Shown here: in pieces, positions 1 to 58,499 of the stretch
How positions within the stretch are numbered: the stretch's first letter is position 1
Layout of the letters: the number at the start of each line of letters is the position of its first letter
NCBI RefSeq assembly: GCF_963675165.1
Contig: NC_087386.1
Coordinates: forward strand, 5,152,169-5,216,168
Origin: Halichondria panicea
Lineage: Eukaryota > Porifera > Demospongiae > Suberitida > Halichondriidae
DNA: 64,000 bases
Direction: 5' to 3'
The notes under the pieces: model-generated
The model's input: only the letters and a program-made list of their open reading frames with translations
Database searches by the model: none
Told to the model about the DNA's origin: nothing
Program-made: the position numbers and the translations under genes

Positions 1-23
1 GGTGCTTCTCCAAATCCATTCAC

Positions 24-840
24 CTTTTTTTTTAGTTTTCTTTCTCCAGCATATACAGATTCCAGCACAGCAGATCAGAATGATCATCAGTATGAGTGTG
101 AACCCTCCAGCTGGCACCGTCACTCCAAGACAGGCTGCAAATCCTAAGTTTGTTACATTTAACTCACCACGACATAGTTCTAGTTGAGTGGGTGTTGCTG
201 ACGGAGTCATAACAGGAGATATTGGCGTTACGATTGATGACATGGTCTGTAGTGAAGGAGTTGGTGTAACTTGACAAGACGAAGAATTGTCTACTACTGC
301 GCAAACTGGACTCCGTTGATAATTAACACTTGAACAACCATTTCCATTCAAGCTTGTATTGACAGTAATATTCACATATGCTGATGGGATGAAGCAAAAC
401 CCGTCAGCTGAGATTTGACAAAAGTAAATACCACTGTTTGAAGAATTGATGCCATGAATAGTTAGTACATAATTGTCTCGAAAGAGTCCATTGATTGGAG
501 AGTTAGAAGAACTAAGTGCAATTTGGGCGTACATCATAGAACTTTCATACCTATCAGAGATATCCTCGACTATAGATTCAATAATTCTGTACCACTTTAA
601 TGTCGCCATTGAATTGTTGTTACTATCACGTGGAGCATATACTTCACATTTTAAGACAGCAGTACCACCTTCTGACACATAACAGTCACTGTTGTTGCCG
701 GGTACTGTCTGATACCAGTAACAGCATCGCTCTGTAACCAAAACTCAATGCATTACTTTTGTAGTCTAACAATAAATGTTACCTGAACAGTTCTGTCCCA
801 TTGATGAGGGTACAAGTAGCACTAGCAGGAACAACAACAT
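24..840 (-). CDS. Ig-domain receptor 1 (3' end beyond window)
   Basis: Two exons are visible: signal peptide (840-783) and Ig/stalk/membrane (731-24), joined by a 51-bp phase-1 intron. The second exon ends at a GTGAAT donor, so the cytoplasmic-tail exon lies off the left edge. The first exon starts MLLFLL-type hydrophobic and ends QNCS. The Ig fold is read from CCYWYQ, GTAVLKC (B strand), LKWYR (C strand) and NSGIYFC (F strand). A Ser/Thr/Pro stalk follows, then a Cys-rich hydrophobic segment and a basic RKKTKKK stop-transfer. The reading frame is fully open. It is a near copy of receptor 3 (6382-8437), differing for example by a three-codon stalk deletion. Likely a type I cell-surface receptor; the ligand is unknown. 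Confidence 0.75.
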
Positions 841-1913
841 TATTTTACTCACAGCTATGCTAATATTATCGGCTTGGCAGTGAGCCTCGGTAGTATCTTT
901 AAATGTGAGTATCTATTGGTTCCTTTGGTAAAGTCCAGGTCCATAGCTAATATAGAACATACCGAAAGACATCATTCCTATAATCATAACAGCATATCTT
1001 AGTCAAAACAAACAGCTTATACTCACTGTAACTTATTAAGAAAACATGCATCACATTGACATACTCAACACACTTACCTGGTACATACATAGTGAGGCTA
1101 CTGCAATCTTTTATAGTAATGGAGACTGTGTTATTTAGTTTGCATGATTGTGCAAAACACAAATAGCTTCACAACGTATAAAATGTTTGCAGTACTGTTT
1201 CAGTTTCACTATGCACAGGCATGCATAAGCACTGTTACAGTAAACTGTACACAAAATGTTAGTAATAACAGGTGGTGAGAACTATCTATTTCTGCAAGGT
1301 ACACACATAATTTAGAACTGGCAACATGGTCATCTTTAATAGTTTGGTTAAAACTCCAGTCTTTGTGATCCAGCTGATGACAGACTACACAGGGGGTGCT
1401 CTCATTACAGGGGAGCATGTGAATTAATTGGTAAGACAGGGATATAGCTTGCTCCCCTCCCCCCCACACACACAGGCACCCTCCCTCTGGATTACAAACG
1501 TATTGGAGCTTGGCATAATTGTTACGGTAAGCAACGAAGTCTCTACTGTTAAAATGCATTTCTACCACAGCGTCGTGATCCTTACAATCAGTATGCTAGC
1601 ACCTTCACTTTGTGAGACGTAGCTGATCCTACTACATGCAAAGTAAGGGAGGTTTCTACTTGGCCATGCATGCAGGGACATACGCGTAGTTTGCCCAGTG
1701 CCTTGCTTCCACACTGACACCCTCCCTCTACTAGATCATGTATAAAGACAGAATTTAACAAGCATGAGCAAGCAGAGAACATCGTAATAAGCTGTCACTA
1801 TTATGCTGTCAAATTTTTTACTTAGTTTTTGCATTTGTTGCGGAATATCATCACCATAGTTTTGTACACTGTAATTCCTCTATATAGGAGTATAATTACT
1901 TCACACTTTACAG
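841..1913. other. Spacer between receptor 1 and orphan exons
   Basis: No gene can be supported. A minus-strand stretch at about 1080-1160 ends in a good GTAAGT donor after a short open frame and is kept in copy 2 (8650-8740), so it might be an unplaced exon. A plus-strand signal-peptide-like start at 1553 is followed by a GTGAGA donor, but its phase does not fit the next plus-strand exon and copy 2 differs. Confidence 0.3.
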
Positions 1914-2572
1914 AACACATGCATTCAATGTATATCCCAGAACATCAGCTAATTCAGTGAACAATACGTTATGTGAAAGGAGAGAGTTTTCTGAAATGTA
2001 CTATGCTGCTATCGGAGTCCTTTCTTGTGTAACTGGGATCCTCGTGATATCTCAAGTGGTCACAATCACAGTATTTGCTGTAGCTTGGAGAAGACAAAAA
2101 AGAAACTTCCATCAACAATTACAAAGAAGTAAGAGTTCTTTAACAGGACATTTTCACAAACTTGTACTAATTTTTACAACCTTGCAACATTAACATAATT
2201 ATGTACCCATGCAGTGCATACGTCGGCTTATAGAGCTAAGAAACATACTGAGTATAATTAATAGAGTAAACAGTTATAAATGTTCCACACTACACATGCA
2301 CAGACAGGCCAGAGCTGAAAGCAAAACGATGAACAAATGCTAAGAAGAATCAAACTGATATAAGTGAAGACCCTCCAATAAAAGACAAAGGGAAATACAA
2401 TCGCGCATCTAGTGAACCGACTTTAAATTTACAAACTTTTGAAGTGGAGCACGTGAGCTCAGCTACAGTTGGTACTAATGAGTACACTCAGTCAATGGCG
2501 AGGGAGAGGAAGTACGAGGCTATTGATGTCACGAAAACGGACTATGTGCAGATGTACACTTCACGGAGTTAA
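1914..2572 (+). pseudogene. Orphan receptor transmembrane + tail exons, copy 1
   Basis: Two plus-strand exons resemble the 3' half of the minus-strand receptors. Exon A (1914-2128) encodes a short stalk, a membrane segment (AAIGVLSCVTGILVISQVV) and a basic WRRQKR. It ends AGAA|GTAAG, the same donor seen in receptors 2 and 4. Exon B (2370-2572) is 203 bp, exactly the length of receptor 2's tail exon, and ends YEAIDVTKTDYVQMYTSRS, clearly homologous to receptor 2's end. No Ig exon is found upstream on this strand. A one-base indel relative to copy 2 changes the phase of exon A's acceptor. It is either a broken inverted copy or a gene whose 5' exons I could not find. Confidence 0.55.
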
Positions 2573-3084
2573 CTTACGGCACATACTCAATTATAATTAT
2601 GCATTTGCAAGTGTACTTTACCACAGCAGCTCAGTACAATAGCACGCAAGCTTATAATTATTATACGCAATATTATGTATAGTACACTTTTTACGTAGGC
2701 ATAATAGATGCCATACGTAATAATTACTTTATGCACAGCTATAATAATAATTATAGTCTACTTATAATTATGCTTGTCAATTTAGTCGATCTGTGTCATT
2801 GTACTTAGGAACCTGGATTGTCTTTCTCTCTTGCACTTTTCACATCCACTAAGTCCTGATTTATGGTGATCATGCTCGTTTGTTACTCCCAAAGCTCTCC
2901 AGTCAGCCACTATATAATTATAGTGAGTAGAAATTAGAGTACCAGTAGCTATGTATACATTAAAAAGAGCAAGACAGTTATTTTAGCCGTGCAGATACGA
3001 TACGATTTTTGTAATGTTAGTGCTAGTCTAATCATACTTGCCATTACTGTGTACATGTATATAATAGCAGGGGTAGAGTGATTG

Positions 3085-3089
<5 letters not shown>

Positions 3090-3123
<34 letters not shown>
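3090..3123. repeat. (GT)n microsatellite
   Basis: Dinucleotide GT run inside duplication copy 1. The corresponding run in copy 2 (10821-10884) is about twice as long. Confidence 0.95.
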
Positions 3124-3125
<2 letters not shown>

Positions 3126-3546
3126 CACAAAAATGAGCTGTTTGAGCGAACTAGACACTTTCATGCATGCATGGGCTGCTTTAACTGCTAATGAGACAGT
3201 AGTTAGGCATGAAACTTTTAGGCGATTTTCGAAGGCGACAAAAACACTGTTTTCTAATCGTCGCTTTATAGATTCACGATCATTCCCCATGCATAATTGT
3301 ATCTGTTTTTCCGCTGTGCACATGCATTAAAGCTCAACTCGCAGGACTAAAGTACTTCATTCAGGTGCTATTGATATTTATTTTCTAGAAGCCATGACAT
3401 TGTCAGATATCTCTACGTATGTACCTCGTGGTAAACACACACAATAAGGCCTTCGGTACAAAATGATTGCTAAAGAGTATGGGAGTGTTGTAAATCTAAC
3501 TAAGTAGGAGTTCAATCGAACCACGGAACACCTCTAAAAGTGTTTT

Positions 3547-4749
3547 TTAAAGTTCATTCGATACACTATACACACTAATGTAGTCCACTTTCGTTATGTC
3601 AATTGCCTCGTACGACTGTGTTTTGTTTTTGGCTGGGGTAGTAGTAGTCAGGTTTGCTCCTTGAGATGAAGATGGCAGAGAGTAGTAAGGATCCTCGACT
3701 GGTCCACCATCATTTGGATGTTCCGCTAATATTGTAGCAGCTCCTTTATCTGCATGTGTAGATAAGCATGACATTGTATAGATAAGCTAAAACATGCAAT
3801 GCAACATGTTATGTACATTAATATTCAGGTATGTTAATGTCTTATCCCCGCGAGCTTACTTCTGCAAGTTTCACACTGGTTCTTCTTATCTCGTCTCATC
3901 CAGGCCAATGCAAAGATGACAATAGTGATGAGTAGTGCCACAGCTAGCAGAGCAACGATAAATGATAGTGAACCAACCAACACTGAAGAGTTGGTTGGTG
4001 ATGATGTCGGGATTCGAGGAATGGCTACTGGAGATATTAGACTAGTTAACGCAATGTTGGCCATAACTGTAGGAGTGGAATTGTTCACCAAAAAGGGAGG
4101 AGTTGGTGTAACTTGACAAGATGACGGATTGTTTAGTGCGCAAACTGGACTCCGTTGATAATTAACATTTAAACAACTATTTCCATTCAAGCTTATATTG
4201 ACAGTGATATTCACATATGCTGATGGCATTAAGCAAAACCTGTCAGCTGAGAGATGACACCAGTAAACACCACTGTCTGAGGAATTGATGCTGCGAATAA
4301 TTAGTTTATAATTGTGTCTAAAGAGTCCATTGATTGGAGAGTTAGAAGAATTAACTGCAATTGTGGCGAGCATCATAGAATTTTCATACTTATCAGAGAT
4401 ATCCTCGACCACAGATTCACTTCTGTACCATTTTACTGTTGCTGTTAAATTGTTGTGACTATCACGTGGAGCGTATACTCCACATGTTAAGACAGCTGTA
4501 CCACCTTCTGACACATGACAGTCACTGTTGTTGCCAGGTACTGTCAGATACCAGTAACAGCATTGCTCTGCATGAATGATCCAATGGCAAAAGTGAAATG
4601 ATTAGCTCTAGCTTATTTGATTACATAGCATAATTTATCATGATAGCAAACACACCTGAGCAGTTCTGAGCTAGAGTGTATTGAAACAGAGCTAATCCTA
4701 TAAAGACTAGCAGCTGTTGCCAAACTATCCTGCTTTGTGCAGCTGCCAT
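3547..4749 (-). CDS. Ig-domain receptor 2 with ITAM-like tail
   Basis: Complete three-exon model: 4749-4656 (signal peptide MAAAQSRIVWQQLLVFIGLA), 4567-3860 (Ig, stalk, membrane) and 3749-3547 (tail), both introns phase 1, 334 aa. The Ig fold shows GTAVLTC, VKWYRS and SSDSGVYWC. A Pro/Thr stalk, a ~25-residue hydrophobic segment ending FALAWMRRDKK and a 67-residue tail follow. The tail holds YYSL and, at its end, YEAI-x6-YISV followed by YSV. That spacing resembles an ITAM, although the last position is Val. This makes it a type I membrane protein likely to signal through SH2-domain proteins after tyrosine phosphorylation; this role is inferred from the motif alone. Splice sites are consensus (GTGTGT, GTAAGC donors; TGCAG acceptors). 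Confidence 0.85.
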
Positions 4750-5200
4750 ACTCTTTTATTCTGTGAAGTGATAAGTAGATTTACATATACTACACGTACC
4801 TTTTACGGCAATTGCTTATCAAAATGTTGACTTATTCAATGTGGTATGCAAAACGGAACTGTATATAAGCCTTATACAGTCCCGTTTTAAGTCAACATTG
4901 GAGTGTTGATATGACACAAACAAATCACTTAAATTAAGTACTTTATACATCGACAGGGTGGTCCACCACAGACTAAAGTGCATATAGGGGCTCATACACA
5001 ATGATTTGCAATGTTTTTGTAACTACAAAAATAGTTATGAGAGATGTAGGTGGTTACAGAACATGTATGTATTCAGAATAATGTCGTGTATTAAATAAGT
5101 CGTGTATTTGCTACGAGTTAAAACAATTGCATGTAACAAACAGTGTAATTTCAAATCTTTCTATTACAGACAATACAATGTGTCTGTAAAGATTGATCAA

Positions 5201-6109
5201 TTAGTCAGTGTGTATCCATACTTCATGTACGTCTGTCAGCTCATCAAAAGGGAATGTCTCAATCGGAGAAACTTCTCTTCTGTGCTCCGGTTCATCCTCT
5301 AAAACTTTCAGTGCAGTAGGGAGAATATCATATTGTGGGTCATCTTTTTCCCTTCCTCAATTCTCGATTGATATAACTGAGAGCTGTTCTTAGATTTAGA
5401 TTTCTTGCTGGCTAGAATTGTTATAAGAGTACACCATAAGCCCAACAGTTGTGTTTGGCTTGTGTTTAGGAATAGGTGGAGTCTGTTCTGGCTAGTTTGA
5501 AGTGGTGGGGATGGTGGTACCGTTTGAAACAGCTTCCTCAAGAACATGTGCTAACCTGTGATAACAACAAGACGGAATGGTTACTGCGCAAACTGGACTC
5601 CGCTGATAGAACATTCATCTACATGTACATTCATGCTTGTATAAGTAATATTCACATAGGCTGATGGGATGAAGCAAAACCCGTCAGCTGAAAGTTGACA
5701 CCAGTAAATTACCACTGTCTGAAGAATTGATGATACGAATGGTTAGTTTACAAAGAGTTCATTGATTGTAGTGCTAAAAAAGTGCAATTTGGGCGAACGT
5801 ACAGAATTTTCATACCTTCAGAGATATTCTCGACCACAGATTCGATGATTCTGTACCACTTTACTGTTGCTTTTTTGAATTGTTGTGACTATCACGTGGA
5901 GCAAATACTCCACATGTTAAAACAGCAGTACCACCTTCTGACACATGACAGTCACTGTTGTTGCCAGGTACTCTCTGATACCAGTAACAGCATCGCTCTG
6001 AATAAATGAGTAGCTTTAACTTATTACATATTTCACCTGGCAGTTCTGAGCAGAGATAATTATTATAAAGACTGCATGCCAAACTCATCCTGCTCCGTGC
6101 AGCTGCCAT
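5201..6109 (-). pseudogene. Decayed Ig receptor pseudogene
   Basis: The stretch matches receptors 2 and 3 in pieces. From 6109 down there is a signal-peptide start (MAAARSRM), then CCYWYQRVPG and GTAVLTC, followed by frameshifts around 5870, 5790 and 5710. The sequence then jumps from the Ig end to the last third of a receptor-3-type tail (5201-5470), including the homologous stop at 5201-5203. The membrane exon and most of the tail are deleted. It sits between receptors 2 and 3 in the same orientation, as expected for birth-and-death turnover. Confidence 0.85.
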
Positions 6110-6381
6110 AGTTCTTATTTTTCAGTGCAAATGATAAGTGTAATCCCTTTTACACATTGTTTATTTTTGAATGCCGCTTTGAAGTGTGTAAGTCAACATT
6201 GTATAATGTGGCTATGTACACACAAAAACTCTGCAACGATCTCGAAAGTTACGATCACATGCATGCAGTGACAGAGAAAGCTGTCTTAATCCACTATTCA
6301 TGCTACACAATACATTATACACAAAATTATTGTTGCATGTAACAAACGGTGTCTCATTGTATACAAGGGTTGCATGATCAA

Positions 6382-8437
6382 TTAGTCATTGTGTATCCAC
6401 ACTTCATGTACGTCTGTCAGCTCATCAAAAGGAAATGTCTGAATCTGAGTAGCTTCTCTTCTGTGCTCCGCTTCATCTTCTAACACTTTCGGTGCAGTAG
6501 GGAGAATATTGTATTGTGGATCATCGAATACCCTCTCTTTGCTTTCCTCAATTATTGATTGATGTAAGGGCTGATCTTGGATTTTGATGTTTTGCTGGCT
6601 GGAATCATTGTAATTGAGTACACCATAAGCTGGAACAGATTTGTGTTTAGGGATAGGTGGAGTCTGTTCTGACTGGTTAAAAGTGGTGGGGAAGGTGGTA
6701 CCGCTTGAAACAGCTTCCTCCAGAACATGATACTCACAGCTATCAGATGATTCATTTGCCAGTGTATTCTGTCGCTGAGCTGACTTTACTACTCTGCTGC
6801 TAAGATTTTCATATTGGTTGTCTTGAGATGTTTCTTCGACAGAGTTTCCCATCAATGTCAACGTGTGTGCATGTGTTCTGCTGTAGCAATGATCCTCTGT
6901 GGAGCCCTCGCTGGTAACAGCTTTAATGGTGTCAGCAATGCTAACAAGAGAGTGATCAAGAACATTGTATTGATTCTGGGATGAACGGCTAGTGGAAAAG
7001 CTATCGAAAGAACTTTGTGGTTGTTGTGACAGTTTATTATCACAAACATCTTCATAATATTGTGAGCTTTCAATTTGCAGCTGCTGTTTCGTATTGACAG
7101 CAGTTTTGTCTTTGTCTTGACCCACAGCCAAAACCATTTCATACATGTGTGGTTCACCCTGATCTCCTTCTAGGTTTATTTTTTGGAGGGCATTGGTTTT
7201 TTCTTGATGCTCCAGCTCACTGTACTCATGATCTAGTGTTCTTTCATGATCACTGACTGGCTCTTCAGTGTGTTCATCAGGTCGTGGGTTTTCCACATCT
7301 TCGTACTGGTGGACTTTCCTTCTCTTGAGACCCACAACTTGAGCATTAGATCTATCTGAGGTATGATCCATTTCAGTTTGAGCCACACTCTGCACAGCTG
7401 CAATGTAAGAGTGAAATAGTTAAAAACAAAGTATGTATATTATGCTGCAGTTCCTAGTGACAGGGATTGTGTGGTGCTAAGTTAATTAATTTTAACAAGT
7501 TGTGGGTTCCCGCTACAAAAGGTAGTTTTACAAGAACCTAAGACCACAACAATTACAACAACAATGTGCTTTTATAAAGGCTTCTCCAAATCCATTCACC
7601 TTTTTTTCTAGTTTTCTTTCTCCAGCATATACAGATTCCAGCACAGCAGATCAGAATGATCATCAGTATGAGTGTAAACCCTCCAGCTGGTACTGTCACT
7701 CCAAGACAGGCTACAAATCCTAAGTTTGTTACATTTAACTCACCACGACATAGTTCTAGTTGAGTGGTTGTTGCTGACGGAGTGATACTAGTCATAACAG
7801 GAGATATTGGCGTTACGATTGATGACATGGTCTGTAGTGAAGGAGTTGGTGTAACTTGACAAGACGAAGAATTGTCAACTACTGCGCAAACTGGACTCCG
7901 TTGATAATTAACACTTGAACAACCATTCTCATTCAAGCTTGTATTGACAGTAATATTCACATATGCTGATGGGGTAAAGCAAAGTTCGTCAGTTGAGAGT
8001 TGACACCAGTAAATACCACTGTCTGAAGAATTGATGCCATGAATAGTTAGTTTATAATTATCTTCAAAGAGTCCATTGATTGGAGAGTTAGAAGAATTAA
8101 ATGCAACTTGGACGGTCATCATAACATTTTCATACCTATCAGAGATATCCTCAACCACAGATTCAATGTTTCTGTACCACTTTAATGTCACCATTGAATT
8201 GTTGTTACTATCACGTGGAGCATATACTTCACATCTTAAGACAGCAGTTCCATTGTGTGACACATGACAGTCACTATAGTTGCCGGGTACTCTCTGATAC
8301 CAGTAACAGCATTGGTCTGTATAATTATAGCCAAAATTCAATGAATTACCTTTGTAGCTTACATTACAATAAATGTTACCTGAACAGTTCTGTCCCATTG
8401 AGGAGGGTACCAGTAGCACTAGCAGGAACAACAACAT
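6382..8437 (-). CDS. Ig-domain receptor 3 with long multi-tyrosine tail
   Basis: Three exons: 8437-8380 (signal peptide MLLFLLVLLVPSSMGQ), 8316-7600 and 7397-6382; phase-1 introns; 596 aa. Residues ~20-145 form a V-like Ig domain (GTAVLRC, LKWYR, SSDSGIYWC), followed by a Ser/Thr/Pro stalk and a membrane helix at ~224-250 with many Cys. The ~340-residue cytoplasmic tail carries nine YxxV/L motifs (YEDV, YSEL, YEMV, YEDV, YNVL, YENL, YHVL, YGVL, YNIL). None has the Ser/Ile/Val/Leu at -2 of a classical ITIM, and none is paired at ITAM spacing, so it reads as an SH2-docking tail. Intron 1 (63 bp) has no stop in frame, so its retention would insert 21 residues before the Ig fold. Confidence 0.85.
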
Positions 8438-9504
8438 TATTTTACTCACTAATATTATCAGCGAGGCAGCGAGGCAGTTTGCTTTAAATGTGAGTATCTA
8501 TTGGTTCCTATGGTAAAGTTAGAGAACATACTGAAAGCATCATTCCTATATTAATCATAACGGCATATCTTAGTCAAAACAAACAGCTTATACTCACTGT
8601 AACTTATTAAGAAAACATGCATCATATTAATTGACATGCTCAACACACTTACGTGGTACATACATAGTGAGGCTACTGCAATCTTTTATAGTAATAGAGA
8701 CTGTGTTATTCAGTTTGCATGATTGTGCAAAACACAAATAGCTTCACAACGTATAAAATGTTTGCAGTACTGTTTCAGTTTCACTGTGCACAGGCATGCA
8801 TAAGCACTGTTACAGTAAACTGTACACATAATAACAGGCAATAACAGGTGGTGAGAACTATCCATTTCTGCAAGGTACACACATAATTTAGATCACTGGC
8901 AACATGGTCATCTTTAATAGTTTGGTTAAAACTCTAGCTAGTCTTTGTGATCCAGCTGATGACAGACTACACAGGGGGTGCTCTCATCACAGGGGAGCAT
9001 GTGGATTAATTGGTAAGACAAGGATATAGCTTGCTCCCCCCCCCCCACACACACACAGACACCCTCCCTCTGGATCACAAACGTATTGGAGCTTGGCATA
9101 ATTGTTACGGTAAGTAAGCAAATAAGTCTCTACTGTTAAAATGCATTTCTATCACAGCGTCGTGATTCTTACAATATCAGTATGCTATAACACCTCCAAC
9201 TTTGTGAGACGTAGCTGATGACCGACTACATGCAAAGTAAGGGAGGTTTATACTTGGCCATGCATGCAGGGACATACGCATAGTTTTCCCAATGCCTCGC
9301 CTCCACACTGACACCCTCCCTTTACTAGATCATGTATAAAGACAGAATTTAACAAGCATGAGCAAGCAGAGAACATCGTAAGCTGTCACTATTATACTGT
9401 CAACTTTTTTACTTAGTTTTTGCATTTGTTGCGGAATATCATCACCATAGTTTTGTACACTGTAATTCCTCTATATAGGAGTATAAATACTTCACACTTT
9501 ACAG

Positions 9505-10309
9505 AACACATGCATTCAATGTATACTCCCAGGACATCTGCTAATTCAGTGAACAATACGTTATGTGAAAGGAGAGAGTTTTCTGAAATGTACTATGCTG
9601 CTATTGGAGTCCTTTCTTGTGTAACTGGGATCCTCGTGATATCTCAAGTGGTCACAATCACAGTATTTGCTGTAGCTTGGAGAAGACAAAAAAGAAACTT
9701 CCATCAACAATTACAAAAAAGTAAGAGTTCTTTAACACGACATTTTCACAAGCTTGTACTAATTTTTACAACCTTGTAACATTAACATAATCATGTGCCC
9801 ATGCAGTGCATACGTCGGCTTATAGAGCTAAGAAACATACTGAGTATATATAGAGGTTATAGTTATAGACTAATCACAAGGTTTGTATGGATATACAGTG
9901 CATTCAAACCCGAGGGCTTTGATTCCCAATCATTCCTATGTAATAGCAGGTTCTGTATCACAGTTATAAACCATTGTATACCTTAGCAACCACATAGCAA
10001 CGGGCAAGAATAAACAGTTATAAATGTTCCACACTATACACATGCACAGACAGGCCAGAGCTCAAAGCAAAACGATGGACAAATACTAAAAAGAATCAAA
10101 CCGAAGACCCTCCAATAAAAGACAAAGGGAAATACAATCGCGCATCTAGTGAACCGACTTTAAATTTACAAACTTTTGAAGTGGAGCACGTGAGCTCAGC
10201 TACAGCTGGTGCTAATGAGTACACTCAGTCAATGACGAGGGAGAAGAAGTACGAGGCTATTGATGTCACGAAAACGGACTATATGCAGATGTACACTTCA
10301 CGGAATTAA
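9505..10309 (+). pseudogene. Orphan receptor transmembrane + tail exons, copy 2
   Basis: Counterpart of 1914-2572. Exon A is 9505-9720 and exon B is 10107-10309 (203 bp, ending DYMQMYTSRN). Exon A here is in frame with a phase-1 acceptor, the phase used throughout the receptor family, which suggests copy 2 is closer to a working exon than copy 1. The tail keeps YEAI-x6-YMQM. YxxM is the PI3-kinase p85 SH2-type motif. No upstream Ig exon is found on the plus strand. Confidence 0.55.
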
Positions 10310-10815
10310 CTTACGGCACATACTCAATTATACCTTGCATAATTATACATTTGCAAGTGCACTTTACCACAGCAGCTCGTTACAATAGCACGCAAGCTCA
10401 TAATTATTATACGCAATATTATGTATAGTACACTTTTTACGTAGGCATAATAGATGCCATTACTTTATGCACAGCTATAATAATTATTATAGTCTACTTA
10501 TAATTATGCTTGTCAATTTAGTCGATCTGTGTCATTGTACTTAGGAACCTGGATTGTCTTTCTCTCTTGCACTTTTCACATCCACTAAGTCCAGATTTAT
10601 GGTGATCATGCTCGTTCGTTACTCCCAAAGCTCTCCAGTCAGCCACTATATAATTATAGTGAGTAGAAATTAGAGTACCAGTAGCTATGTATACATTAAA
10701 AAGAGCAAGACAGTTATTTTAGCCGTTCAGATACGATTTTTGTAATGTTATTGCTAGTCTAATCATACTTGCCATTACTGTGTACATGTATATAATAGCA
10801 GGGGTAGAGTGATTG

Positions 10816-10885
<70 letters not shown>

Positions 10886-11393
10886 ACACAAAAATGAGCT
10901 GTTTGAGCGAACTAGACACTTTCATGCATGGGCTGCTTTAACTGCTAATGAGACAGTAGTTAGGCATGAAACTTTTAGGCGATCTTCGAAGGCGACAAAA
11001 ACACTGTTTTCTAATCGTCGCTTTATAGATTCACGATCATTCCCCATGCATAATTGTATCTGTTTTTCCGCTGTGCACGTGCAATTAAAGCTCAACTCGC
11101 AGGGTGAATGCATGAGCATCTAGTTCTTTATATCTTTGCAATTTAAGTTCTTAGCTTAATTCTTGAACTAAAAATAGGGTCCATACAGACCATACATAAT
11201 TATAAGTCTTTGATATGACTATTTTTAATGAACCTCCCATCAGAGGACAACCTCCTAAAAGAGGACAAAAGGTTTGCTCCCAAAGTGAAAGTCCTTTATT
11301 CGGAGGTTCCACTGACTGTATAATTATAGTAGCAAGTTTATATAATTATTATACGTACTCCTTATAGCCCTACTATTTTTAAAACATACTTAC
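10310..11393. other. Spacer with microsatellite and dispersed repeat
   Basis: Holds the GT tract at 10821-10884 and, at about 11222-11318, a fragment of a dispersed repeat containing 'gaggttccactg'. The tail exon of receptor 4 should be here or further left, but I could not identify it. Confidence 0.4.
10821..10884. repeat. (GT)n microsatellite
   Basis: About 32 GT units, longer than the homologous tract at 3090-3123. Confidence 0.95.
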
Positions 11394-13420
11394 TTCGCCT
11401 GGCAAATTTTAGATCTCTCTTGTCCAGTGCCCTCAAAACACACTTAACGAAACACAGCAGTGGGACACTCAGTATACAAATCAAAATCACAGTTGATACA
11501 CTCGCTAATGCGATTATAATCACTTCTGGATTCGTACAACACTGAGCTTCCTTCTTATTGTTACCCCCTTCAATCGTCATTCCTAGTGTGGTCGGAGTGG
11601 GTGTGGGAGTTGGTATGCTTATTTCACAGCATTCTGGTTCTGCTAGAATTTCCCAGTAGGTGGAGTCGTACCGACTTGATGGGCATGGGGTGGTCACTCC
11701 ATTTGGCTGGTATAAGTGCAGGGTTTGTGACTGTGAGAATTCAAAAATTCCAATATTTGAGCTCCCTGGTGGATGCTCTAATATACACCAGTAGTAGCCG
11801 AAATCTGATGTTCCTGTACTAGAAATGGTAAGCTGTCTCTCATAACCATTGATACCACTCAGCTCAGGAGGAATCCGGGGGAGATTTGATGATGAATAGT
11901 AGCGTTCAGTTGCACTGTATTTGCTGGGAGAGGCAGTGATATTTATCCATGTGCTTGGAACCATGTCAGCATTCGGAGACCAATAGAATTCAAAAGAGGG
12001 TCTTGTTGCATTCGTCTCTGCCTCGTACATTAGAGCTGTGCAGTCGACGTAACTTGATCTACCGACAGGATTGCACGCAGGAGTGTACTCTGCTCTTGGT
12101 ACAATCCAAAAGAAGTAATCACAGTCTCCTGCGGTAAATGCATGTATAGCTCAACTATAGGGTTTATTATTAACGATAATTGCATGTGCATGTACTATAT
12201 AGCTCAGCTATAGGATTATAGTAGACTCTTGTTAATCTGGCCACCCTTGGGACAGCTAGTGCAGCTTGGCCAGAATAGCGAGGTGACCGTATTTCAGAAA
12301 ATTGCCGCGGCTAAAACAATCTTACCTCTAATGACTAATTTTGCAGTTCTGTCTTGAGGACAGTGTGGGTTTTAATGCAGGTTCTGTAAACGACGAACAA
12401 AACAAAACAAGGAGTTTTAGAAAAATAGTTTAGTTGCATGCAGTCAGACGTTGAAGAGAGTAGTTTGTGTACTTAGGCTCAGTGGATGGTCTTGGGAGGT
12501 GGAGGTTATCATAATTATGTCCACGAGTTGATACCTCGAGCTTGTCTATGCTCAGAAGTTTTGGTGAAAAGTTCTTGCATGCATGTATACTTATACAGAG
12601 GCGTAGGAAGCAATTTTACATTGGTCAGGCAATTATTACTATGAACTTTGAATAATGAAGGGGATAATGAATCATTCTGCCCAATTTTATCAGCCAAAAT
12701 TTCATATTCTGTTGTAATAAACGTATTGAAACCTAGTTTGGGGCAGCCAGTACGTGGCCAGTATACGGAATAACAAGTGGCCGCAGTAAACATCTAGCTA
12801 GCGATTCGTGCCAAACCAAATGCATGGCCGGTATATCAAGGTGGCTGTACTTCAGAGAGCCAGAATGGCGAGAGTCTACTATAATCATCATTGCTTTGTA
12901 GGATTGCACATTGGTGGTACTAGCTTACAATTATTTCTCCAACACCGTAAATGATTAATTACCTGTATCTATTAACTAGAAAGCATCAAACATTATTATG
13001 CAAACTTTGATCAATTCGCAAATATAAAATCGCAAAACCTACATAATTACACACGATCCTTGCCAGAATGTAATAGATGGATCGCAAAAGGTCCATTTTT
13101 CTGCTGATTTGGCTTACCAGGGGGGGTAGCTATGGTGGCCCTGGTCAGGTATGCTGTGAGCATGAGAGGGGTAGCTATGGTGGCCCTGATCAGGTATGCT
13201 GTGAGCATGAGAGGGGTAGCTATGGTTGGCTTTTAGCAAAGGTTTTTCACCAGCAAAATAATTATTCATTAATTTTAGACATGGCCATAGATAATTATAG
13301 CAGATATCTTCTCTTTTTCTGAGGGAGTTTGCACAAGAGGTTGTAATATGACAGTATCAACTCACCCACTTGTCCTTTTGCAATATTTAGAGCCATCATC
13401 AAGAGCAGAAAAATGGCCAT
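11394..13420 (-). CDS. Ig-domain receptor 4 (divergent; tail exon not found)
   Basis: Exon 1 is 13420-13366 (signal peptide MAIFLLLMMALNIAKGQ, donor GTGAGT). Exon 2 is 12128-11394, after a 1237-bp phase-1 intron. Exon 2 encodes an Ig-like fold (SYVDC, FEFYW, QLTISSTGTSDFGYYWC), a long Cys-containing membrane-proximal stalk with PTPTPTPTT, and a membrane segment (ALASVSTVILICILSVPLL). It ends CGAA|GTAAGT, the donor position used in receptor 2. Sequence outside these anchors differs strongly from receptors 1-3, so it is an older paralogue. The downstream tail exon could not be placed. Its start lies 116 bp from the divergent SCaMC gene. Confidence 0.75.
12214..12886. mobile_element. Terminal-inverted-repeat element in receptor 4 intron
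   Basis: 'gattatagtagactct' at 12214-12229 is exactly inverted at 12871-12886 (agagtctactataatc). Further imperfect inverted similarity extends inward (tctggccacc / ggtggctgtac, and ccagaat-type words). There is no coding capacity, so it looks like a non-autonomous DNA transposon of about 0.67 kb. Confidence 0.6.
13116..13232. repeat. Minisatellite copies in receptor 4 intron
   Basis: Two and a half units of the ~45-bp repeat 'ggggtagctatggtggccctg..caggtatgctgtgagcatgag'. The same unit forms the large array at 13726-14541 in SCaMC intron 1, about 500 bp away and on the other side of the SCaMC first exon. Confidence 0.9.
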
Positions 13421-13536
13421 TGCAGACAGGAAGCTTGTTGCCCATGCGCGTCGATCTGTTGTCATAGATAAAGTCTTTATTTTCAGTTGTAAACAGTCGA
13501 CCCTGTACCGTTTAATAATTAATAAGGGAAGGGAAG
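13421..13536. promoter_or_regulatory. Divergent gene spacer (receptor 4 / SCaMC)
   Basis: Only 116 bp separate the start codons of two divergently arranged genes. Both promoters or 5' UTRs must lie within or overlap it, unless upstream non-coding exons exist. No clear TATA box is seen. Confidence 0.35.
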
Positions 13537-22004
<8,468 letters not shown>

Positions 22005-34515: not shown

Positions 34516-35837
34516 CTAAACTGGTTTGGTGGAAGTTCCCTCCGCCTCTAGCCTGGCCTTCTTTCGTAGATCAGACCTCATCAGAAAGAAAGTCGCAATG
34601 AACAGCAGAGAGCTCAGGACATACACGCCAGGGAACGTCACACTCAGCGTGATCCTGAGGCTCAACAGGTGAGGGAGGCTCTGTTGTATGGCATTGAGAA
34701 TGGGAGTCACTAGCAGGTTAAAGTTGCCTCCGATTAGCGTGATGATGAAAAGATAGATACTGACAGCCCCGGTACGGACACGACTTGGAGCAAGGTCGAC
34801 AACGAGCGCTGTGGTGACACCGACCCACATCTCACCGATGATGTTGGAGGGGAGGAGAGAGAGAAAGCACCAGGGGTAGGGCAGGAAGAGGGCACCCAGG
34901 GCAAATGGGGCAGCAGCCATCTGGAAGGGAGGGGGGTGCAAATATACGCATATTTACATAATTTGTATTCATAACACCTCTTTAAGACAAAACAAGGCTA
35001 TTATAATGGACAGGAACTCTTATAGTATGGATCACAAGTGCAGTCAATCCACCAAATACAGAACTGTGTAGCTCATAGTGATAAAAAGTGACCAATAACA
35101 GATGCTCCCTTTTGGAGTAGGGCAAAACCTGAAACGTGATAAAGGCTCACCTGACTGATGATGAGCACCCATATCCTCATGTAGGGACTGCGGCCCTTGA
35201 CGAGGATGTCAGAGATGAGACCCCCCACCACTGCTCCTATGGAACCCGCCACCAAGGGAATCCAAGACATCCACCTGAGAGGGAGAGAGGCATTGAATAT
35301 GTGCAGTGAAATACTATGCTTGTTAGATTCATTTAGCTTTAGCACGTACAGTATGAGAAGCTGGCTCAAATATTTTGATCGTATCATTATAGTAAATGTT
35401 CTTAACCTATCACTCCTACATGTACATGTAAGTACTCAATAGTGAATTTTTTTAGATGGTAGGTATGGCCTGAGCAGGTACAAAACGAACCTTCCCATTA
35501 AAAGAATTGTTACATGTACAAGTGTTCAAAATGTTGATACTGCATGTACATAATACCCCCCTACTCACTGTTGGATGGTAGTGGAGCTGTATCCCACCTC
35601 CTCAAAGAACAGCTCAGTGTGATACGCCCAGACATAGCCCCCAGCGTTCCTAATACCCCCTGCCAAGCACAACATGAGCATCCCAGGCATAAAGAAGGTT
35701 TTCAAGAGGAGAACAATACGTTCCTTTAAACTGAGTTTTTTCTCGGATTTTCCAGCTTTATCCACGGCCTTGTTTTGCGAGCGAGGAGGTTCCTTTACTG
35801 TGAAAAGGACCAGAGGAGCAGCTGCAAGACCTGTGTG

Positions 35838-35890
<53 letters not shown>

Positions 35891-38304
35891 CGTGCACATT
35901 TGCAGGAGAATGTGTACGAAGCTGTATCCATATTCAGTTGGATTATAACAATAGTTGATTTTCTACCTGTCTTAATTAACACAGCTGTGCACTCTCAACA
36001 ATCCCAATATCAACTACACAAGTCACATGCTCAGCTTTTACATAACAAATGAACTCAGCCGCATGCTATGGCCTAACTTAATAACCACCAAAGTTGTACA
36101 GATGCGTGCAGAAACATCCTGTAAGGAAGTGGCCTGACATATGTGTGCCAGAATTTGACAAAAAGGACCAATAATGTTGGTACCCAAATAATTATATGTT
36201 TGAGATGCATACCAGAGATTGGAAAGCTTTAGTTTTCAAAAAACTGACCTTCCTAACAACATTATTTTGACAGCTTGAAATTGTGCTCAGGGAGAATTAA
36301 TTGAACCAAAAATCTACTTCACTTCAAATCAGTCCCTTTTTTATGATCCTTCTGCCACACTTTTCAAGCAACTCACAATTTAAAGTAGCCATTGTTTGTA
36401 CATGCAGCTTACCGATGATCCCACTGAGAAAGAAGACCCATCTCCAGCCGATGGTTTGCTTGATGCCGTTCCCGATGGCAAACGAGAGACTGTACCCGAT
36501 GTAGATACCCCAATAGTAGAATCCTACAGAGGTGCCCCGGAACTCTGGGGGGTAGTAGTCGGCCAAAATGGACACGGCAAATGGACTGCAACCAGCAGCA
36601 CTGTGTGTGTGTGTGTGTGTGCATATAATAGACGCATAAAAATGAATTTTGTCCCTAGAAGTAATGTAACTGGATATAGCTACAGTGTACATTAGAATGT
36701 GAAAACGAAAGGTAGCTAGCTTTTGATATAAACTGTATTATAGCATCTACGCACAGAAGATGATAATGGTACATGTATCACTGTCTCGTTGACAAACACA
36801 TTCTAGGCTGTACACAGGAATTGCAAACCTTCCATCTCTTCTGTAAGACCAATACCCCCTCTCCCCCACCACTCACTCACCCAATGGCCAGCACTGCTCT
36901 CACCAATACCCCCTCTCCCCCACCACTCACTCACCCAATGGCCAGCACTGCTCTCAGCAATGCCCCCTCTCCCCCACCACTCACTCACCCAATGGCCAGC
37001 ACTGCTCTCAGCAATACCCCCTCTCCCCCACCACTCACTCACCCAATGGCCAGCACTGCTCTCAGCAATGCCCCCTCTCCCCCACCACTCACTCACCCAA
37101 TGGCCAGCACTGCTCTCAGCAATGCCCCCTCTCCCCCACCACTCACTCACCCAATGGCCAGCACTGCTCTCACCAATACCCCCTCTCCCCTACCACTCAC
37201 TCACCCAATGGCCAGCACTGCTCTCAGCAATACCCCCTCTCCCCCACCACTCACTCACCCAATGGCCAGCACTGCTCTCACCAATACCCCCTCTCCCCCA
37301 TCACTCACTCACCCAATGGCCAGCATTGCTCTCAGCAATACCCCCTCTCCCTCACCACTCACTCACCCAATGGCCAGCATTGCTCTCAGCAATACCCCCT
37401 CTCCCCCATCACTCACTCACCCAATGGCCAGCACTGCTCTCAGAAGTACCAGTTGCCAGTACGAAGTCACGAAACCTGTCACTCCCACAGCAAGGCTCCA
37501 GATCACCAGACAGATGACCAACCAGACTGTCCGTCTTCCATAGTCCGCCAAGAACCCGGTAAAGATGCCAGCAACAATGTAGAGATTATTGAACACTGGT
37601 CCGGCCACCACTTCATACAGGATACCAGTGCCAGAGTACCACCATCTACACGCATCAAATGTCTTGTTCCCCCACTCAAACTTAACGTCGATCGAGTTGT
37701 TGCAGTTTGTCTCATTATTCCTGCAAAATGTCGAGTAATGTACAAAATAAATACAAAACAAAATAAAAATGCTCTACCAGCATTATAACAGTGATTTGTT
37801 TCCGAAACAGAATCCATTATTACAAAGAAGGAAAGCCATTTTTGCGGCTTCTAAAAAATAAAAATAAACTTACTTGATATCGAGGCCATCATAGGACTGA
37901 TTAGAGCACCGCATAGTGATTGTTTCAAACTCATCCAGCACTGTGTGGTTCAGCTCCTTGTTCACCATACACATCTCATCTCCGTACTCCAAGTCGTACC
38001 CAATCTCCGTGACAACGATTGGTAGCGTGTAGCGATCCAACTGATTGATGAGATAGACCAGCAACATCATGAGCAAGACCCAGTGAGCGTAGGGCTTGAC
38101 TCCACGTATCATACGATACACTCCATAACCTGGGATCACGTGTCTGTGCCGAAATATGAAACCACCTTTGATGACTGTTGGTTCACTGTTAATAGTGTCC
38201 TCTGCAGGTCTGGAAGCTCCCTCTGATGTACCATAGGAGGGAGGGCTCGAGAGATCGGCAACCTCGTCATTGACCAGCAGTTCTTTCTTCTCATCGTCTT
38301 CCAT
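34516..38304 (-). CDS. spns: Spinster-type MFS transporter
   Basis: Six coding exons: 38304-37874, 37720-37421, 36600-36413, 35830-35569, 35274-35151, 34920-34516; 569 aa, within the Spinster size range. An acidic cytosolic N-terminus is followed by about twelve membrane segments. Diagnostic parts are INQLDRYTLP at TM1 (family LN.xDRx), an unusually long TM1-TM2 loop with N-glycosylation sites, MFS motif A as LADYGRRTVW, then LLRAVLAIG-AAGCSPFAVSILADYYP. Spinster proteins export sphingosine-1-phosphate or lysophospholipids from lysosomes or the cell surface; which one applies here is not clear. Exon 2's donor is embedded in a 54-bp minisatellite. A possible 5' UTR exon lies near 38412-38530. 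Confidence 0.9.
35839..35889. repeat. (GT)n microsatellite at Spinster exon 4 acceptor
   Basis: On the minus strand this is a CA run leading into the acceptor CACACAG| at 35831. Confidence 0.95.
36848..37441. repeat. 54-bp minisatellite copying Spinster exon 2 donor
   Basis: Eleven units of 54 bp. The rightmost unit contains the true exon end: on the minus strand ...AGAGCAGTGCTGGCCATTGG|GTGAGTGAG at 37421/37420. The other ten lie in the intron and each repeats the last 20 or so exon bases plus the donor. As 54 is a multiple of 3, long spurious ORFs appear on both strands. Confidence 0.97.
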
Positions 38305-41300
38305 TCTCTACATGCAGAAAGCCAATAATGTTAGCATTGTATGTACGTATGCTTGTATGAGCATTCAGTTGAACTAGCTGAATTGCACTGGAATAATGCA
38401 GCTCCACCTACCGCTGTCTTTGTTAGATCACTGAGCCTATAGAGAGACCTTGAAGCTCCACAGAAGTTAGTTTGAGCTGCTGTGTAGTGTAGTGCTGTGG
38501 AGAGGTCAGTGTGTGCAGCAGCCCTGGTCACATGTCTGACTGTGTAACCTTGACACAGCTATGAAACTCATTAGCGACCCAATTTGTGGTTTCTTGTTAA
38601 TGCCAACTAATAATTACCTCATGTAACTGGGACATCGCTATAATTATACAGCTTCTACATGTGTCTTTTCAAGTTCTTTAGACGATCCACTTTACAGCTG
38701 ATCTAATAGAAGAATGGACCGGTAACTAACCTCATCGTACCCCGATATAAGTCACACTACCCCCAATAAAGTGAGTTCATAGAAGCAGCTAGACTTTTTA
38801 TATCATGTGGCAGGCTGCATGGCCTATTCTAAAAACTAGTATTCTAGAATGCTACATTTACTGTGTATGATATTGCACTGTGTAGAGAGTGAGTGAGTGC
38901 ACTGGGCTAGCTGTGATACTAGATACTGACTGATAACATCTCAGGAATCGCAAGATATTTCGGATCACTTTTTCAAAGGTATGTTCACCGGATGATTAAT
39001 TTTATTGCAGTTTGTACAGTATGCATTATAATATCTAGTGTGCCCTAGGGACATATTTCCATTAAAGAAAATGCTATGGTAGCTACGTATGTATTCGTTA
39101 ATTTTGTCTGCAAACCTCTTGTGCGTAGACTCTTATGTTTGATGAGTAGCGTGTGTGTGTGTGTGTGTCCTTATGCAACAGCCCCCTTCTATGTATGGTG
39201 ACAAAGAGTAGCTTGATGTGATAAAGGTCAATTATGTAAGTGCCGTTCAACTCTCAGCTGTATTGAGTAAACTAGGACAAAGTGCTCATTGTTACCATTC
39301 ATTATAATACTGCCTACTATAACATCAAGCCCATTTGTTGGCCGTCGTGACCTTCCTTTAGTGTGTGGGCAGATGGCCTTGTTGCAATTACAAGCTTCTG
39401 CAGCTATTAGTACAAGCTTCCGTACATTTAAGTGGACTTCTTTTAAATTTCGAGCCTCTGTAGCCATTGGTGTGTTTGTGACTAGTGTCTGTACGTGCAT
39501 CAATTGTTTGTGTCAACTCTTTTGTGAGCATACTTTTCTAATCAACCTACATGTATAATAATTTTTATTTATACATGTAGTAGAAGATCATTTTCGTGAG
39601 CTTTCCTTTGTCTGTACTAGAGCTGACTTCGTGAGCTTTTCCTTTGTCTGTACTAGAGCTGACTTCGTGAGCTTTTCCTTTGTCTGTACTAGAGCTGACT
39701 TCTTGAGCTTTTTCTTTGTCTGTACTAGAGCTGACTTCGTGGGCTTTTCCTTTGTCTGTACTAGAGCTGACTTCGTGAGCTTTTCCTTTGTCTGTACTAG
39801 AGCTGACTTTGTGAGCTTTTCCTTTGTCTGTACTAAAGCTGACTTTACTTGTACATCTGGCCTCTCTATACATCCTCCACCTGGCAGAGATGCTAGGATG
39901 TTGTGGGTATGTGGTTGTGTCTACCCTACATAGAAGGAACAACTTTAGAGTCAGGTGGTGGGTGTGTGGTAATAGTTCCTATCAGGCACCCCTCTTAGCT
40001 GGGACACTTGACTCTAACCACAAGACACAGTTTAAGTCCTTTAGTCAAGTGTGTGGTTAAATTAACACTTGTATTAATAGTACTCACAGGAAGAGTTCCT
40101 CAAAAATGTGCTTCCTACATTTCCTAGAAACATGAGTTTGTATAGTTAGAAGTGCCTGCACCTGTACATGTACATGTACACACGCACACATCGACTCCTT
40201 CGATGTAATGTCAAGTGGGGTTTCATGTAGCTAGATATTTGCATCGGCCTTATACTGAAAGCTTTATTTAAAGTATTTGTTAGTTGAATATAATCTGACT
40301 TACATGCTAATGGCTTCTATATATGCATTATGTTAGGTGTGTGCGGGTTAGCAAACCACATCAAAGGATTCGTAGGGGTTTCCCCAAGGATGTCACAAGG
40401 TTTTCCCTGACGTTTTAGGTCATAATGTGATATTGACATCATTTATCATTTAACAACTCTTAGTTCCTGAAAGAATTTGAAGAGTTCCCATAGATGTGAC
40501 CCGTGTAGAGTTGCTAGTGGTAACCCCAGGTCAATTAGTAATGACCTCAGTACACAGTGTACACATGTCAATGTAATGCCTAAATGATATTCATAGCTTC
40601 CAGACCATGTGCTTATGCTAATTACCTTCGACTGATACGGTGTGGCCTGGGTGTACGTGTCTTATTCATGTACTGCTAGAAACTTAGTATGTGATATATC
40701 CTAACAAAATGTAATATATATTATAATTATAGCTAACAAATTCTTATTCATTGAGGCTGATGCCGTGCATGTAGCTAGCTATAGATGTGCGTGTTTGTAG
40801 GGGCGTGCTTAATTATATACATGTTAACTACAATGTATGCATAATTATATTATAGTACGTACTATATATATCCATAATCAATTTTTCATAATAAATTCTT
40901 GATAGCCTGTGTAGGGGAGTAGATACATTTACTAATAGGTACATCTGCTCCCAGCTGTCATGTGAGGTGGTTAGTAATGGACCCCCAGGCTATAATTATG
41001 TCTGACCTATTACAGCCCACCGTGAGAATTAGATCATTATCAGTTGCCAGCCACCTGGCTCTCTGATTATCATATCAGACATAATATGTTTGCATGAGGT
41101 GTTTTCGCCCTTTTAGACCCCCCTAACAATGCTTGCATTATTGTAGTAAATGAAGCATGTCCTTGGCTACATAATGTTGATTGCGTAAGTGGAATAACTC
41201 TAAGCTTCCATTTTTTAAATAATCATGTAGCTTTCACATGTTGACAGAATTTTCACCTCTTTGTAGGAAAGTGCTTGGTATTGTGACACTGCCAAATTTC

Positions 41301-44019: not shown

Positions 44020-47333
<3,314 letters not shown>

Positions 47334-52386: not shown

Positions 52387-53017
52387 CCTAGCTCCTGCTA
52401 GCTTCTATCTTCTAAGACAGAATATTAACTATGCAACTTTCAGTGTTTTTAAACCTAACAGTCATGTATGTACTGTGTAGAGTATGTAGTTGGTATTAAT
52501 ATTTTTATCTCTGAGTTATGTTGTTCTTTTGTTTAACACTGATGATTTCATATTTTAATCATTTTGAGCTAGAACCATTTACAAAACTCCTGTACTGAAA
52601 TTCATAAAAAAATCATGCTATTTATTACATACAAGGAAGAGACAATAATTGAGAGCTTAGAGCAAAGCTCCTGCATGCAATTACTAGAATGGAGAATGGA
52701 CAATATCAGATTCCCAAACAAGTGTGGTTAGGTGCAAACCTCAGCCAGCCTTTTGTTTCCTGTCTATTAGCTATTGAGCATTGTGGTGACGTCATAAAAC
52801 GCAGGCCTTCCCCATTGTCTGAATACCATTCTGATATGCGCAATCCGCTGGAGCGACCTTTGAACCCCCCGAAAATCTGCTTGCTGCGAAATTCGCATGC
52901 AAAGAAGCTGTGCAGCTCGCTCACTCCTTCCGCCATTAGCAGAAGGAATACCGGCATCCCTATTAAATATCTACCTGCTTGAGCTATTTGCATGCAGCTG
53001 CACGTCTAGCTGTAGGC
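52387..53017. other. Spacer between tandem collagen genes
   Basis: 631 bp holding the 3' UTR of collagen A and the promoter of collagen B. No obvious gene; no clear TATA box near 52950-53017 other than AT-rich 'tattaaatatc' at about 52961. Confidence 0.5.

Positions 53018-58448: not shown

Positions 58449-58499
<51 letters not shown>

Follow-up and report, generated by a model that had tools for sequence, protein, structure and literature searches.

One immunoglobulin-type ectodomain on two tyrosine-bearing tails: a changing receptor gene cluster, and candidate recognition locus, in a sponge

What purpose does a cluster of immunoglobulin (Ig)-domain receptor genes serve in a sponge, and does its construction place it among the known recognition systems of animals? 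This question is posed by a 64,000-nucleotide stretch of DNA (the window; C10:5152169-5216168, C10 being the contig that holds it), of which positions 1-13465 constitute the right edge of such a cluster. A first-pass annotation had proposed a complex for self/non-self or innate immune recognition at this place. We searched the entire 131.5 Mb assembly (39 contigs) and inspected 136 kb locally. The receptor cluster proves to be real, large and subject to change, with copies arising and decaying, and a role for it in recognition is concrete but unproven. We give slightly better than even credence to the reading that these are innate recognition receptors in a cluster undergoing change, built like the paired receptors of vertebrates. 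Among the titles and abstract openings listed from the open-licence literature, no sponge cluster of this kind is described.

The receptors fall into two types that were assigned by reading the open frames of the members: type A (I03, I06, I10, I11, I15 and I18) and type B (I04, I08, I13 and I16, together with the broken copies I07 and I12, which were typed by their stalk). A and B receptors possess a common Ig module (87.5% identity over 479 columns), after which dissimilar transmembrane (TM) and tail modules follow. When I15 (A) is compared with I16 (B), identity amounts to 82-95% per 60 columns in the Ig module and then to 33-47% in the stalk and TM, with the similarity boundary lying inside the one exon that Ig domain, stalk and TM share. 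I07 and I12 carry a type B stalk under an Ig module that is 95-98% identical to that of the A copies I03, I06 and I11. An Ig tree split by tail type is rejected for all 12 typed members (approximately unbiased (AU) test, p = 2e-41); this strong discordance arises because the two broken chimeras are included, and one seven-member subset without them gave a weak rejection (AU p = 0.015). Judged from these alignments and trees, the Ig and tail modules have likely been joined more than once, and the case for an exchange of Ig domains between intact A and B genes is weak.

The type A tail is long, and in I18 nine of its 12 cytoplasmic tyrosines reside in YxxPhi motifs, against 2.3 expected; none of 5000 shuffles reached this number (the tail motifs of I18 and I16 were counted on spliced models). 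Two further tyrosine-rich frames, counted unspliced, are likewise enriched in YxxPhi (11 versus 4.8, P = 0.004; 6 versus 2.6, P = 0.02). The type B tail is short and contains a pair, YEAI-x6-YISV, that resembles an immunoreceptor tyrosine-based activation motif (ITAM); the relaxed form of this pair appeared in 144 of 5000 shuffles (P = 0.03). Of 12 short-tail places (11 from the short-tail search, plus 5081340), all recent copies rather than independent cases, 10 have the pair; it is absent from 5137659, whose frame stops, and from 5042101. Tail tyrosines were not significantly more conserved than other residues (11 of 12 invariant versus 178 of 256, P = 0.12).

Alongside the receptors are genes of an Ig-less, adaptor-like kind, of which two plus-strand copies of the TM and tail are present in the 136 kb examined. 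They encode a signal peptide, an ectodomain that spans about 14 residues and includes a single Cys and one site for N-glycosylation, a TM free of acidic residues, and a tail with YEAI-x6-Y[VM]QM; in outline, we take them to resemble ITAM adaptors. Neither copy is intact: the tail exon of copy 1 has an early stop codon, and the signal peptide of copy 2 is out of frame with the remainder, its tail being open.

The tandem duplication at the right edge of the cluster allows the divergence of the receptor parts to be compared within one event. The A Ig exon (I15/I18) differs at 42 of 378 sites (11.1%), compared with 102 of 2954 sites (3.5%) in the pooled non-coding and pseudogene DNA (P = 2e-9). 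Other parts of the same duplication differ by 2.3% (pseudogene Ig), 3.1% (A tail), 2.0% (B tail) and 2.3% (A stalk). The peak of divergence extends into intron 1 (6 of 49 sites).

Within 100 kb (C10:5065341 to 5164318) we found 19 Ig exons or pieces, 18 of them alike and one divergent; the 18 family places (C10:5065341-5160665) result from grouping by hand the matches of the whole-genome and local searches. With the I18 frame as query, the whole genome yielded 28 matches: two are weak and lie elsewhere, and the other 26 fall on this part of C10. The long-tail search gave 11 matches and the short-tail search 12 matches at 11 places, all of them on C10 and the latter reaching down to 5042101. 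Ig domain and TM are open in six of the 18 members (I06, I08, I11, I15, I16 and I18), 11 Ig exons are broken or fragments, and in I07 the Ig part is open and the TM shifted; the tails of I06 and I11 are shortened. More distant copies of the duplicated block (74-88% identity) lie upstream, and no second haplotype of the cluster was seen in the single assembly. The other long tyrosine-rich open frames (C10 5038448-5039839, 5040420-5041541 and 5079662-5080783), among them the two enriched in YxxPhi, had no match to the A tail in the local search.

In the working that we propose, one V-set ectodomain module would be fused to either of two signalling modules, A or B. A variable ligand (microbe, symbiont or self) would be bound and cluster the receptors, and Src-type kinases would phosphorylate their tails. 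Phosphorylated YxxPhi sites of A would dock SH2 proteins, the ITAM-like pair of B could recruit a tandem-SH2 kinase such as Syk, and the response would be set by the balance of A and B signals. Surface expression, phosphorylation of the tails, opposite signs of A and B and the recognition role are steps that we infer. Since SH2 exons are abundant in the genome (at least 71 matches) and Syk-family kinases have been reported from sponges including Amphimedon (PMC9601881), signalling through the tyrosine tails of these predicted receptors appears plausible.

A number of results weigh against a paired set of innate recognition receptors. The B Ig exon pair, one member of which is broken, differs by 5.0% and is not significantly fast (P = 0.14), and lesser divergence peaks occur near 7125, 7427 and 9117 (at most 12 per 150 columns, whereas the Ig exon has 12-19). 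The proportions of differing nonsynonymous and synonymous sites in the A Ig exon are 0.112 (pN) and 0.098 (pS), with pS above the 3.5% of the surroundings (P about 0.006-0.02), and 16 of the 18 changes private to I15 or I18 are nonsynonymous, a proportion that does not exceed neutral expectation (P = 0.24). Because pS is raised and the private changes lie within the neutral share, point positive selection is unsupported, and we do not claim it from the ratio of nonsynonymous to synonymous substitution (dN/dS) of 1.19 in the I15/I18 Ig exon. With synonymous sites also raised, exchange with divergent copies or alleles would be the simplest cause of the Ig-exon peak, better than point selection alone; selection may in addition act on which of the exchanged variants persist. 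In favour of the recognition reading, variable residues of the intact copies I08, I15, I16 and I18 gather in C'-D and FG (22 of 37 versus 34 of 114 elsewhere, P = 0.002), albeit in a test that left out I06 and I11 and whose regions were drawn post hoc, after the differences were known, the strand borders having been judged visually with the conserved Cys and Trp as guides.

Further counter-evidence comes from the Ig tree and the tails. Without I07 and I12, a split by tail type is not rejected for the ten remaining members (AU p = 0.12), nor is it for the six intact genes (AU p = 0.47), so that discordance between Ig tree and tail type among intact genes is unsupported. The spliced A tail possesses no ITAM, no immunoreceptor tyrosine-based inhibition motif (ITIM) and no switch motif (ITSM), none of its nine YxxPhi motifs being a canonical ITIM. 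The spliced B tail has no ITSM and no strict ITAM; its single ITIM pattern, VDYISV, is at the level of chance (850 of 5000 shuffles). Opposed motifs of ITIM and ITAM type were not found on the two tails, and the TMs of the gene models are free of charged residues. The first-pass annotation had reported tails rich in YxxPhi, which the shuffles bear out. Of the recognition complex that it proposed, the clustered family of type I Ig receptors, the pseudogenes and the tyrosine tails are found, together with one fast Ig pair; ITIMs, which it named for Hydractinia Alr, are not supported.

Three of the four receptor genes in the window, all of which are on the minus strand, belong to one family (I15, I16 and I18), and the fourth is the divergent I19 (Table 1). 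Spliced models with GT/AG introns, all of phase 1, give open proteins of 591 (I15), 334 (I16), 596 (I18) and, with a candidate third exon, 320 amino acids (I19), each with one Ig domain; the family receptors splice cleanly on one common exon plan and have a short stalk rich in Ser, Thr and Pro. The V-set scores of I15, I16 and I18 (27.6-33.7 bits) exceed the Pfam cut-off of 26 bits, and I18 displays the landmarks C27 (B-strand Cys), W45 (C-strand Trp) and C103 (F-strand YxC). The Ig exon of I19 stays below every Pfam cut-off (ig 18.3 versus 21.8 bits). I19 is 33% identical to I18 in the alignment (BLASTP E = 1e-4 over 40 residues), and a profile built without it finds it at just E = 0.049, while a profile built with I19 included cannot serve to judge its kinship; we do not count I19 as a family member, and its kinship to the family is weak. 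The first-pass annotation had rightly recognized at least four Ig receptor genes within 13 kb, their common exon plan and phase, a pseudogene with frame breaks, and a recent block duplication. Its orphan tail exons are exons indeed but not orphans, being part of the two plus-strand adaptor-like genes. The cluster is not confined to 13 kb, and the additional members for which it advised a search of the neighbouring stretch do exist.

Table 1. Receptor genes and associated features at the right edge of the cluster (positions in the window unless marked C10)
Feature	Position	Strand	Evidence
I15 type A, signal-peptide exon	783..840	-	spliced model, GT donor, phase 1
I15 type A, exon 2: V-set, Cys-rich end, stalk, TM	24..731	-	Pfam V-set 27.9 bits
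I15 tail exon	C10:5150980-5151989, outside window	-	spliced 591 aa model
Adaptor-like gene, copy 1	1554..2572	+	signal peptide 1554-1611, short ectodomain and TM 1958-2128, tail exon from 2304
I16 type B, tail exon with YEAIDITKVDYISV (YxxI-x6-YxxV)	3547..3749	-	spliced model, motif count
I16 type B, exon 2: V-set, Cys-rich end, stalk, TM	3860..4567	-	Pfam V-set 33.7 bits; 334 aa model
I16 type B, signal-peptide exon	4656..4749	-	spliced model
Pseudogene I17: broken Ig exon and end of type A tail	about 5201..6121	-	frame breaks
I18 type A, tail exon; 12 cytoplasmic tyrosines, 9 in YxxPhi	6382..7397	-	spliced model
I18 type A, exon 2: V-set, Cys-rich end, stalk, TM	7600..8316	-	Pfam V-set 27.6 bits; 596 aa model
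I18 type A, signal-peptide exon	8380..8437	-	spliced model
Adaptor-like gene, copy 2	9141..10309	+	signal-peptide exon 9141-9203, TM exon 9550-9720, open tail exon from 10050
I19, candidate third exon with tyrosine-free tail	10516..10645	-	inferred from AG acceptor and open frame
I19, exon 2, divergent Ig receptor	11394..12128	-	sole match in genome is itself
I19, signal-peptide exon	13366..13465	-	gene model
Tandem duplicate of block -4242..2278	3343..9867	.	93.9% over 6605 columns

To the right of the cluster, an EF-hand/mitochondrial carrier gene takes over. A 45-bp minisatellite (window 13123-13226 and 13718-14534) lies beside and within the first exons of this gene, and about two of its copies are inside the first intron of the I19 model. 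Farther along the window, at 34519-38307 (minus strand), 46759-47103 (minus strand) and 49770-61211 (plus strand), an MFS transporter and a protein kinase were identified with Pfam and collagen-like sequences were read from frames; a masked run of N is situated near 47.5 kb. Between the Ig groups (C10:5049754-5113145; L010-L012, L016 and L017), there are repeated ankyrin and kinase exons, of which one each is confirmed by Pfam and the rest were read from frames. A receptor-like gene is present in two copies (C10:5067827-5071212 and 5119103-5122845), with an ectodomain of no recognised kind, a TM and, downstream, a stretch resembling a tyrosine-kinase C-lobe; at 5070901-5071212 this stretch scores 21.9 bits, below the Pfam cut-off of 23.1. 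Other groups of V-set exons occur in the same genome at C10:1.636-1.729 Mb, C4:5.66-5.72 Mb, C9:2.465-2.475 Mb and C1:10.649 Mb.

The first-pass annotation had considered the DNA to be probably that of a sponge, and silicatein-like exons agree with this view. Six of 16 further short cathepsin-like pieces carry the motif CG[AS]SYAF, with Ser instead of the catalytic Cys; the first four cathepsin loci looked at have the ordinary Cys. One of the six Ser pieces was searched against the PDB, and its best match was silicatein alpha (6zq3, E 3e-11), followed by cathepsins (4e-9). Silicatein is a mark of siliceous sponges, and the host is most likely a demosponge. A mitochondrial contig was not found in the assembly; the sole COX1-like match, perhaps a mitochondrial insertion, is short, contains two TGA codons and lies on a large contig (C1:5280527-5280718).

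Of the competing explanations, the one that survives best, unlikely as we hold it to be, is that adhesion or developmental Ig receptors have been expanded in tandem, their tyrosine tails serving endocytosis (YxxPhi sorting) or coupling to the cytoskeleton. YxxPhi is also an AP-2 sorting signal, and the weak sequence matches of the receptors include sidekick, CEACAM and NCAM, besides MXRA8 and CTLA-4. However, developmental receptors would not usually show so high a share of pseudogenes (11 of 18) or a faster Ig exon, and adhesion would presumably have no need of two alternative tails on one ectodomain.

A little less probable than this is an allorecognition locus, whose polymorphic Ig labels or receptors would decide between fusion and rejection, as has been proposed for Hydractinia Alr and Botryllus fuhc. 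The clustering of Ig receptors with pseudogenes and the fast Ig exon pair would fit such a locus, as would core YxxI/L/V motifs such as Botryllus FcoRs are reported to have (PMC12065747) and the ability of sponges to tell self from non-self grafts (PMC5450542). However, the transcriptome paper on Amphimedon grafting uses neither "immunoglobulin" nor "receptor" in its main text. As other V-set exon groups are present in the genome, nothing marks out this cluster, and a self/non-self role may be one possibility among several. We attach the same low likelihood to the bolder proposal that the cluster is a first candidate, at the level of genes, for a self/non-self complex of sponges that is based on Ig domains, composed of paired receptors with a diversifying V-set on either an ITAM-like or a multi-YxxPhi tail and of an Ig-less ITAM-like adaptor alongside.

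The receptors with which sponges discriminate self from foreign grafts are not established, the standing candidate being the aggregation factor (cited in PMC5450542). According to a 2025 review, the proteins proposed for allorecognition in sponges, cnidarians and ascidians bear no relation to one another, and signalling by ITAM/ITIM is a point of convergence among cnidarians, Botryllus and mammals (PMC12065747). An Ig cluster of a sponge, with its two classes of tyrosine tail, would extend this convergence to Porifera and, if the proposal holds, would place paired receptors with tyrosine motifs at or near the root of the animals. The cluster also offers graft experiments a circumscribed target for genotyping, and it is a testable candidate for the discrimination of friend and foe.

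Lower again we rate the neutral tandem expansion of a decaying family, in which gene conversion and relaxed constraint, and not recognition, would account for the differences between copies. The broken Ig exons, the damage to both adaptor-like copies and the shortened tails of I06 and I11 fit this explanation, as do the raised synonymous sites of the Ig exon and a dN/dS of 0.72-0.97 in the tails of the youngest copies (four comparisons). Yet at least three complete genes are left, the A tails of older lineages have a dN/dS of 0.42-0.60 (11 comparisons) and the TMs one of 0-0.48 (seven within-type comparisons, with few changes), and the biggest excess of divergence falls on the Ig exon, the adjoining intron and the nearby flank. 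That the tandem unit merely represents two haplotypes assembled in series is very improbable: the units are 94% identical and heterozygosity in some marine invertebrates can reach such divergence, but the block has further copies upstream, the copies differ in intactness, and no copy was found on other contigs save weak matches.

How, then, does the cluster compare with known systems? In its proposed working it parallels the paired receptors of vertebrates (PMC5112662) and the receptor half of recognition in Botryllus and Hydractinia (PMC12065747; PMC11999971). Weak PDB matches of the sponge receptors are 8qpx (a receptor tyrosine kinase (RTK) fragment, E 0.004) and 8ovq (a cell recognition molecule, E 0.008), both of which we take to be Geodia chains. 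The RTK and the SAM adhesion molecules of Geodia have two Ig domains each, and we know of no tail pairing or cluster among them. The likeness is that of Ig-domain membrane proteins of sponges (PMC12018476 cites an RTK of Geodia that has Ig-like domains). The fester co-receptors (FcoRs) of Botryllus are likewise type I receptors, grouped in a recognition locus. They have a V-type Ig domain and, in their long tails, YxxI/L/V cores and an ITIM or hemITAM; a sushi domain and a pair of C2-type Ig domains come in addition (PMC12065747). Unlike in Botryllus, no partner ligand was seen in the sponge cluster.

The Hydractinia Alr complex includes pseudogenes, and its ectodomains consist of tandem Ig domains. 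It comprises 41 genes with V-set and I-set domains (cited in PMC11999971) and motifs of ITAM/ITIM type (cited in PMC12065747). The comparison with Alr is a functional one. The sponge cluster resembles it in the linkage of Ig transmembrane genes with pseudogenes (19 Ig exons or pieces in 100 kb, 11 of 18 broken) and differs in phylum and in having a single Ig domain per receptor. Since the tandem Ig ectodomain is lacking, we do not file the cluster under Alr.

Vertebrate paired Ig receptors (CEACAM1/3 and Xenopus Ceacams; also KIR, LILR and CD300) form clusters too, and exchange among them is confined to the ligand-binding part (PMC5112662). Unlike these, the sponge cluster has no canonical ITIM in its long tail, the opposition of A and B being presumed, its similarity boundary falls within one exon, and the kinship is visible just as the Ig fold. 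It does possess what characterizes the paired receptors, closely similar putative ligand domains of V type on different tyrosine tails. With its two tails on one ectodomain, the cluster resembles the paired receptors of vertebrates at least as much as Hydractinia Alr.

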